From Deltaproteobacteria bacterium (GTDB lineage: Bacteria > Desulfobacterota > Binatia > UTPRO1): a DNA stretch of 64,000 nucleotides. The stretch covers positions 1 through 64,000 of the forward strand of contig JADLHM010000038.1 of the NCBI GenBank assembly GCA_020848745.1. Direction: 5' to 3'. Positions 19,965 to 21,853 of this stretch are shown piece by piece. Under the pieces are notes generated by a model. It saw only the letters and a program-made list of their open reading frames with translations, was not told the DNA's origin and did no database searches. The translations under genes and the position numbers were made by a program. Each line of letters opens with the position of its first letter. The stretch's first letter is position 1.

Positions 19965-20027
19965 CCGCGCTCTATAGCGATCGCCCGAGCGCCCGTCGAT
20001 ATGATGGCTGCTGCTGCGGCAAGTAGG

Positions 20028-20131
20028 GGGGCGCTTTGCGGCTCCCGGTTCCAGGAGCCCAGCGCCGAGGGCCCGCCGGTGGCTCTCCGCCTCGGGGTCA
20101 AGCGAGCTGTCCGCCGCTCGCAAAGCGCCCC
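20028..20131. repeat. 104-nt cloverleaf-like palindromic element
   Basis: The ends GGGGCGCTTTGCG (20028-20040) and CGCAAAGCGCCCC (20119-20131) are a perfect 13-bp inverted repeat. Inside are GGCTCC/GGAGCC (20040-20059, 8-nt loop), CCGAGG/CCTCGG (20065-20095) and a short AGCG/CGCT hairpin. Together they fold as three arms on one long stem. It does not match a tRNA: no CCA-ready end, and no T-loop TTC in the right place. It could be a small mobile palindrome, an RNA structure ahead of the 20226 gene, or an unknown ncRNA. Confidence 0.55.
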
Positions 20132-20225
20132 AGCACCCGGCGGCGCGCACGCGGGCTCTTGGCTTGCGGATCGCATGTGACGCTGCCAGGGTGCGCGAGC
20201 CGTCATCGCCCAGCGAGGAGCCCCC

Positions 20226-20604: not shown

Positions 20605-20688
20605 ATGACGAAGCAATGGCCCGGCTACGACGACTACCAGGCGGGCACCCCGCGCGACATTCCGGTCGTGTTGCTGCGTCCGCGCTGA
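20605..20688 (+). pseudogene. C-terminal remnant of an F420-type nitroreductase (DUF385)
   Basis: Twenty-seven codons remain, starting MTKQWPGYDDYQ and ending IPVVLLRPR before TGA. They match the last strand and tail of deazaflavin-dependent nitroreductase-family proteins, which end with a WP/YP-x-Y-x-x-YQ-x-x-T-x-R-x-IPVV-LxPR pattern. The other about 120 residues of the family are missing. The fragment begins four bases after the upstream membrane-protein gene, so a deletion likely removed the rest. Confidence 0.6.
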
Positions 20689-20798
20689 CGAAGCTCGCCG
20701 ATCGCCGCGCGCGCATGCTGCAGCATACCGTGGTGCCGCTGCCGGGCGGAGGCTGGTTCAGCCCCTACGGACGGTCTGGCGAGGTATTGCGCGACGCA

Positions 20799-20978
20799 TC
20801 AGTGCACCCGGAAGTCGCGCAGCAGCGTGATGGCGCCGAGACCGTGCGCCTTCCGGTAGTAGGCTTCGTCCGCCGTGACGCAGAGAGTCTCGCGTTCGCA
20901 CCGGGCGACCGCATGATAGAGCGTGTCGAAGACGTGGTGACGCAGCGACGCCGCAAGTCGGCACACTTCGACGTACAC
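20799..20978 (-). pseudogene. C-terminal half of a PIN-domain (VapC-like) toxin
   Basis: The frame from GTG 20978 encodes 59 residues that match the second half of a PIN domain: LRHHVFDTLYHAVARCERET, then LCVTADEAYYRKA and LLRDFRVH at the stop. The conserved H-x-x-x-D-x-x-Y and TAD acidic residues are kept, but the N-terminal half with the first catalytic Asp is absent. A strong ribosome site (GGGAGGAGGGGACG) with an ATG sits just upstream, in a frame that stops after six codons. No antitoxin gene is seen. Confidence 0.6.
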
Positions 20979-21013
20979 CGCGACGTCCTCAGTGGACTCG
21001 GGGCGGTCAACCG

Positions 21014-21853
21014 CTATTCGGATCCATCGTCCCCTCCTCCCGCCGACCGACGGGGCGCGGGATCGGCAGCCTGGTTCACCCTAGGCACGGGTGCTGCCGG
21101 CCGCCCGTCCTCGGCGCGCATGCGGGCGAGATTCGCGTCGATCTGGTCGTGGAGGTGGGCGACCAGATCGGCGTGATCCTCGCCGGGGGTCCGCGCGATC
21201 GGGTCGTCGATGCGGACGCGTACCCGCACACCGAACGGGATCGGCCAGAAGTTCCGCTGCATGAGCCGCCAGGAATGCTCGATCGTGACGGGGACGATCG
21301 GCGTCGCCGGCGCCGCCGTGAGCAGTGCGACGGTTCCGCGCGGCTTGAACGGCTTCAGCTCGCCGCGTCGCGCCCGCGTGCCTTCGGGGAAGATCACCGC
21401 CGAGACGCACCGCTTCTCGACGCGCCGGCCGAGCTCGGTGATCGCCGCGGTCGCCTGATCGGCGTCGTCACGGTCGATGAGACAGTTGCCGCCGCGGCGC
21501 AGGTTGTACGAGACGCTCGGGATGCGGCGCGCGAGCTCGCGCTTCGAGACGAATTTCGGGAAGTTCGTGAAGAACAGGTGCAGCAGGAGCGCGATGTCGA
21601 ACATGCTCTGGTGGTTGGACACGATGAGGTAGGCGGTGCGCGGCCGGACCCGCGGCGAGCGGTCGATCGTGAGCCGCAGACCGGTGATGCGAAAGGCCTC
21701 GACGAGCGCGGTGCCGAGGCAGGCGACGCTCCAGTCGTGGGTCCGCTTGCCGAACGCCTTCGCGATCCATTGGACCGGCTCGAACACCAGGAGGATGAGC
21801 CCGAAGACGACCGAGAAGACGATCGTCATCGGCCAGTCGAGGATGCGCGCCAT
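21014..21853 (-). CDS. plsC: 1-acyl-sn-glycerol-3-phosphate acyltransferase (PlsC family)
   Basis: This 279-residue membrane-bound enzyme acylates lysophosphatidate to phosphatidate in phospholipid synthesis. The N-terminal hydrophobic helix MARILDWPMTIVFSVVFGLI is followed by motif I NHQSMFD (catalytic His-Asp) and a middle block ARRIPSVSYNLRRGGNCLID. Motif III is IFPEGTRARRGELKPFKPRG, and motif IV is PIVPVTIEHS. The ATG at 21853 begins the membrane helix directly; an in-frame GTG at 21925 would add 24 residues without a signal. The charged, Pro-rich tail after about residue 240 is unusual. It lies just downstream of the pqi operon on the same strand, which fits an envelope-lipid theme. Confidence 0.88.
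   Translation of the reverse strand: MARILDWPMTIVFSVVFGLILLVFEPVQWIAKAFGKRTHDWSVACLGTALVEAFRITGLRLTIDRSPRVRPRTAYLIVSNHQSMFDIALLLHLFFTNFPKFVSKRELARRIPSVSYNLRRGGNCLIDRDDADQATAAITELGRRVEKRCVSAVIFPEGTRARRGELKPFKPRGTVALLTAAPATPIVPVTIEHSWRLMQRNFWPIPFGVRVRVRIDDPIARTPGEDHADLVAHLHDQIDANLARMRAEDGRPAAPVPRVNQAADPAPRRSAGGGDDGSE

Follow-up and report, generated by a model that had tools for sequence, protein, structure and literature searches.

A lineage-specific family of cloverleaf palindromes, probably mobile and in part MITE-like, in a genome of the class Binatia

A short intergenic segment of a Binatia genome (GenBank assembly GCA_020848745.1, contig JADLHM010000038.1) was described as a 104-nt cloverleaf closed by a perfect 13-bp stem, and the question raised by this locus is what kind of element such a structure represents. 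The sequence-only reading of the window (by which we mean the whole stretch of 64,000 nt that was analyzed) held it to be unlike a terminator and unlike a tRNA, and offered three possibilities: a small mobile palindrome, an integration hotspot, or a structured RNA.

The perfect stem was confirmed, its two arms (Table 1) being 100% complementary and 78 nt apart, but the length was not: relative to the orthologous site of a congener (G001), the element is an indel of 135 nt and is therefore somewhat longer than first given. That the stem encloses hairpins holds for the minus strand, on which the minimum-energy fold combines the closing stem with side hairpins, but not for the plus strand, on which the closing stem is retained and the interior forms a single long arm. 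When the window copy is folded alone, side 2 of the conserved inner helix becomes an arm of a side hairpin instead. Folding energies are near those of shuffled sequences (z of −0.72 for the plus strand and −1.76 for the minus strand). We rejected a tRNA or other known RNA, as ARAGORN reported 0 tRNAs or tmRNAs in the window and Rfam gave 0 matches there at gathering score (matches by E value only were weak microRNA models, far under their cut-offs); nor was a T-run terminator found at the element.

Table 1. Coordinates of the window element, its parts, and its neighboring genes
Feature	Position in window	Strand	Basis or remark
Short-chain dehydrogenase gene	start 19964	minus	PF00106
Match of covariance model R1	20004..20150	minus	94.7 bits, E 1.4e-12; this copy is among the 22 model-building copies
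Whole element, as indel versus the orthologous site in congener G001	20009..20143		ends uncertain by ~3 nt
Left arm of closing stem	20028..20040		perfect 13-bp inverted repeat
Side hairpin	20040..20059	minus	arms 20040-20048 / 20051-20059, 8/9 complementary; fold and inverted-repeat search
Conserved inner helix, side 1	20071..20076	minus	GCGGGC on minus strand; little or no change across the 22 copies
Conserved inner helix, side 2	20102..20107	minus	GCTCGC on minus strand; alignment and consensus structure
Right arm of closing stem	20119..20131		perfect 13-bp inverted repeat
DUF4345-like gene	start 20226	plus	26.0 bits, marginally below the cut-off of 26.5

Taken alone, the stem is unexceptional for G+C-rich DNA: perfect 13-bp inverted repeats whose arms are 60 to 120 nt apart number 2 in the window, and 30 first-order Markov simulations gave 0.9 on average (maximum, 3). 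A chance inverted repeat would thus account for a single stem, and what lifts this one above chance is its family, with 44 distinct, dispersed places in the genome and stems that covary; we accordingly rejected the chance hairpin, to which we give almost no credence.

A nucleotide search with the window element across the entire genome (G000) returned graded matches, 12 of them (itself included) at an E value of ≤1e-6. From 30 loci found by DNA search, we excluded seven as chance or too short (L021, L023, L025 to L028, and L030; L027 and L028 after alignment) and one as a truncated copy (L007), and the 22 retained copies form the alignment A1, from which the covariance model R1 was built. At an E value of ≤1e-4, R1 recognizes 44 distinct places in G000, with scores that are partly high by construction because the model was built from copies of the same genome; these places derive from 53 rows, of which 7 are the opposite strand of a listed place and two are weak matches left outside the count (C70, which is partial, and C5). 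The element is thus not a single copy but one of many dispersed ones. R1 has 14 matches at an E value of ≤0.01 in G001 and none in a second congener (G002) or in three genomes of the same family, and across the class, under stricter filters and an E value of ≤1e-4, matches occur in 2 of 148 genomes, the other 146 having none. Similar DNA was not found in phage records, and a composite element of subtype B (see below) has no match in plasmid records; a 37-nt match between the window stretch and a Sinorhizobium plasmid was taken as chance.

Most copies come in pairs. Inverted pairs account for 34 of the 44 places (17 pairs, with 66 to 189 nt between matches), always in the order of a minus-strand copy followed by a plus-strand copy, and the remaining 10, the window copy among them, are solitary. 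Two subtypes were assigned from a motif and by eye: subtype A, which includes the window copy, has a core containing GACAGACAGCTCGC or a near variant, and subtype B has one containing GGGGAGCCGCAGCTCGC followed by CGGCGACCGTAG, or near variants. Each of the 13 B pairs combines one copy whose outer stem is B1 (GCCGGCGGGTGGGTCCGGG) with one whose outer stem is B2 (GCAGGCGGGCGGGTCGGGG), as read by eye, and each is therefore one element with two distinguishable ends; one further pair (C141) is mixed. Individual copies carry elaborations of their own: L020 and L022 (G000, C152 and C73) have an extra hairpin, GTGCCCTCGGAGAGGG, common to both cloverleaves and placed in the same loop of each, and the cloverleaf of L155 (positions 1779 to 1970; G001, C16) has another long palindrome nested in its interior.

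The stems of the family covary. In A1, 92.3% of cells pair under the consensus structure, compared with 78.9% in shuffled alignments and 41 to 57% when the structure is slid, and double-sided changes occur at 14 of 24 pairs in the 22 copies. Double-changed cells number 64, compared with a shuffled mean of 20.2 and 11 to 18 on sliding; 0 of 500 shuffles reach 64, although such shuffle counts are not probabilities because the copies are related. The letter changes fall within the closing stem, the inner helix (GCTCGC/GCGGGC) varying so little that it is uninformative on pairing. Three of the four orthologous copies shared with G001 have a closing stem that is less changed than the interior, and in the orthologous copy at C3 the closing stem is decaying, with 8 of 29 pairs broken.

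A conserved core with covarying stems is also what would be expected of a structured RNA (a small RNA or a ribozyme-like molecule) present in many copies, with stems selected on the transcript of the strand bearing the G-rich left arm. This explanation draws further on a T-G pair in the conserved helix, present in 22 of 22 copies, which, as RNA, can form on just one of the strands, and on mismatch counts in the stems of 57 copies (44 from G000 and 13 from G001, excluding L156, whose interior is deleted, and the weak minus-strand match of L155). Under the stricter alignment, G-T exceeds A-C by 65 to 43 (p 0.043), the excess being 36 to 19 in B copies (p 0.03) but only 29 to 24 in A copies (p 0.58), and under a looser count made beforehand it is 105 to 88 (p 0.25), all p values being uncorrected and the copies related. 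These counts point weakly to, at most, a slight G-U excess. Considering also that no Rfam family reaches its gathering score in the window and that a simple scan around the window copy turned up no promoter-like sequence, we regard the structured RNA that the sequence-only reading had proposed as unlikely.

Comparison with congeners shows that the elements vary in presence from genome to genome. The window site is empty in G001, where the flanks, which align at about 90 to 93%, join directly, with at most ~3 nt possibly duplicated at the indel; the difference could reflect either a gain in this genome or a loss from G001. The idea of an integration hotspot is unsupported, the congener's site being simply empty. 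We searched the flanks of 16 further sites in G001 and G002. The element is absent in G001 at C21, C102, C33, C13, C47, C45, and C67, as well as at C56b, where 67 nt stand in its place, and in G002 it is absent at C56a, C25a, C55b, C32, and C3; at the last three, G002 is empty and G001 occupied. With the window counted, 14 of 17 sites are therefore empty in at least one of the two congeners, several of them with untidy junctions, and 3 (C125a, C79, and C92) allowed no judgement on presence or absence. Subtype B contributes to this variation at C21, C102, C33, C13, C47, and C45 (absent from G001) and at C56a (absent from G002). Between the C125a flanks in G001 lie 3.5 kb that we considered as a candidate autonomous copy and set aside, since they contain no cloverleaf and their open reading frames look, by eye, like those of ordinary enzymes.

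The B pairs sit inside elements of ~460 to 570 bp, which reach beyond the cloverleaves to ends like GGTAGTGTCTCAG. We tested ends and target duplications at 26 sites in G000 and 3 in G001, leaving out C73, at which a separate search found one such end. Of the 14 B sites in this test, 9 match GGTAGTGTCTCAG at one end or both with ≤2 mismatches (neither end comes within 2 at the other 5), and 8 have both ends within 4 mismatches, a level reached by the best match in 45 of 590 random placements. Flanking 8-mers are identical (8/8) at the G000 B sites C92, C45, and C13 and agree at 7 of 8 positions at C21, C102, and C152, and C60 in G001 has an 8/8 target duplication of 8 bp; the remaining 8 of 14 G000 B sites lack a 7-of-8 duplication. 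No GGTAGTGTCTCAG-like ends above chance were seen at 12 other tested sites, namely, the window, 7 further A sites, C141, C57, C69, and C79. The best ends of the window copy have 4 to 5 mismatches to GGTAGTGTCTCAG, and its flanking 8-mers agree at 4 of 8 positions.

These ends lead to the IS1 family. The exact 13-mer GGTAGTGTCTCAG is present in 8 of 38 relatives, and in G018 and G094, from two other families of the class, such ends border elements with IS1-like transposases, which match PF03400 (IS1 transposase) with 27.2 and 29.4 bits (cut-off, 24.1) and the NCBIfam IS1 model below its cut-off. Perfect 8-bp duplications, CCTTTATC and CCTGCCTA, flank L213 (which measures 710 bp and retains the remnant of a transposase) and L214; none was found at the L212 element. 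Relatives of the L212 transposase at an E value of ≤1e-10 were not found in G000, G001, or G002, and a mobilizer acting in trans is accordingly putative; as these are draft assemblies without such a transposase, the B elements are best called MITE-like and orphan, rather than a demonstrated active MITE. An autonomous element with cloverleaves around a transposase was considered and rejected, no two cloverleaves lying 0.5 to 5 kb apart on one G000 contig. Further matches to GTAGTGTCTCAG in G000 (L200 to L203) were also discarded, the two that were re-found resembling gene parts. In another family of the class, the 349-bp element L218 (positions 248 to 596; G015, C7) has ends like GGTAGTGTCTCA and folds with strong self-complementarity; it may be a parallel case of a palindromic MITE.

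Inverted pairs of palindromes are equally a feature of REP/REPIN-type elements mobilized by a Y1 (RAYT-like) transposase, and G000 and G001 each contain one match to Y1_Tnp, with none in G002. Both Y1 genes, however, look truncated or broken, no cloverleaf lies near them (best match, 16.6 bits, E 0.35), and the B elements make 8-bp duplications, which Y1 transposition is not known to produce; we consider this origin very unlikely. A perfect 32-bp palindrome adjoins a Y1 transposase fragment at L159 (positions 1434 to 1498; G000, C104).

The genomic setting bears on a further explanation, in which the elements would be BIME-like 3′-end hairpins of use to the host, ending or stabilizing the transcripts of neighboring genes and kept for that reason. 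By a crude, frame-based gene call that yields raw counts only, 5 of 28 sites lie between convergent genes, 16 to 63 nt from the gene ends (C125a, C25a, C67, C56b, and the mixed C141; four A and one mixed). The window copy, in contrast, lies between divergent genes (Table 1), the B sites occur in mixed contexts, and, as noted, the element itself has no T-run terminator, all of which makes such a role quite unlikely. The two gene remnants ascribed to the spot fared unevenly. One, at 20605 to 20688 on the plus strand, comprises the last 27 codons of a gene whose counterpart in G001 (L142, minus strand, ending at 517) is open over a greater length, yet it lies beyond an intact neighbor gene; by eye we take it to be a deazaflavin-dependent nitroreductase-like protein. 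The other, a short minus-strand open reading frame at ~20799 to 20978, similar by eye to the end of a PIN-domain toxin, has no Pfam support. Positions 20692 to 21111 have no alignment in G001.

Dispersed copies, covarying stems, sites empty in congeners, and B ends with 8-bp duplications together bear out the suggestion of a small mobile palindrome. We think it reasonably probable that the elements form a lineage-specific family of palindromic, nonautonomous mobile repeats, that subtype B is an orphan IS1-type MITE, and that the window element is a solitary, worn member of subtype A. The common unit would be the cloverleaf, in which a long closing stem surrounds a conserved core, mostly present as two inverted cloverleaves; the B pair would then be the inside of the ~460- to 570-bp element with GGTAGTGTCTCAG-like outer ends and, at part of the sites, 8-bp duplications. 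By analogy with other MITEs, an IS1-like transposase that is now absent or unassembled here may have mobilized the B elements in trans, and the A copies may be relatives that lost, or never had, GGTAGTGTCTCAG-like ends. The window copy could have arisen by loss of the remainder of a composite or by a separate route for the hairpin.

That separate route is central to a competing possibility, in which the cloverleaf would be a module mobile in its own right, inserting by itself as a folded single strand, and an IS1-type MITE would later have taken up pairs of them. Such a solitary insertion may be hinted at by the 135-bp indel in the window, which has no transposon ends, and recognition by the conserved core and the shape, as opposed to the end sequence, would explain how the closing stem changes freely while remaining paired. 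We hold this to be unlikely, if credible.

Template switching is described as able to create and repair stems like those of this family in at least one account (PMC8794818), and it may be this, rather than selection on an RNA, that maintains them: the arms would be corrected against each other by template switching at replication, letters turning over while pairing stays. In addition, a fold that helps insertions to be tolerated is perhaps selected for. The family adds to known repeats one whose long stems keep their pairing while the letters turn over fast, in dozens of copies at known sites, and thereby offers a natural test bed for template switching versus selection as the keeper of perfect hairpins; it also links paired palindromes to IS1-like ends and, for annotation, accounts for dozens of palindromic gaps in the genome.

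Our search of the literature found no description of the family, which does not by itself prove that none exists. The B elements resemble bacterial MITEs in being short, multicopy, and free of a transposase gene, with inverted ends, target duplications at some copies, and an apparent orphaning from an IS family, but differ in that most of their length is taken up by two cloverleaf palindromes whose stems covary and that the family also includes solitary cloverleaves without ends. With the IS1-family elements L212 and L214 they share the terminal 13-mer GGTAGTGTCTCAG, and with L213 and L214 the 8-bp duplications that occur at part of the B elements, although the B elements contain no transposase and the transposases of the relatives fall below the NCBIfam IS1 cut-off. 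REPINs and BIMEs are likewise dispersed as one unit made of an inverted palindrome pair, along with solitary singlets, but their hairpins measure 20 to 40 nt, versus ~130 to 150 nt for the cloverleaves, and here we see DDE-type ends and duplications and find no intact RAYT. The stem-loop families of Cozzuto et al., as characterized in a 2008 survey of 40 genomes (PMC2267715), are also repeated, largely intergenic, and predicted to share a common fold, a likeness of description only. The present family is, then, a new one of a familiar kind of genomic repeat, set apart by unusually well-kept folded arms.
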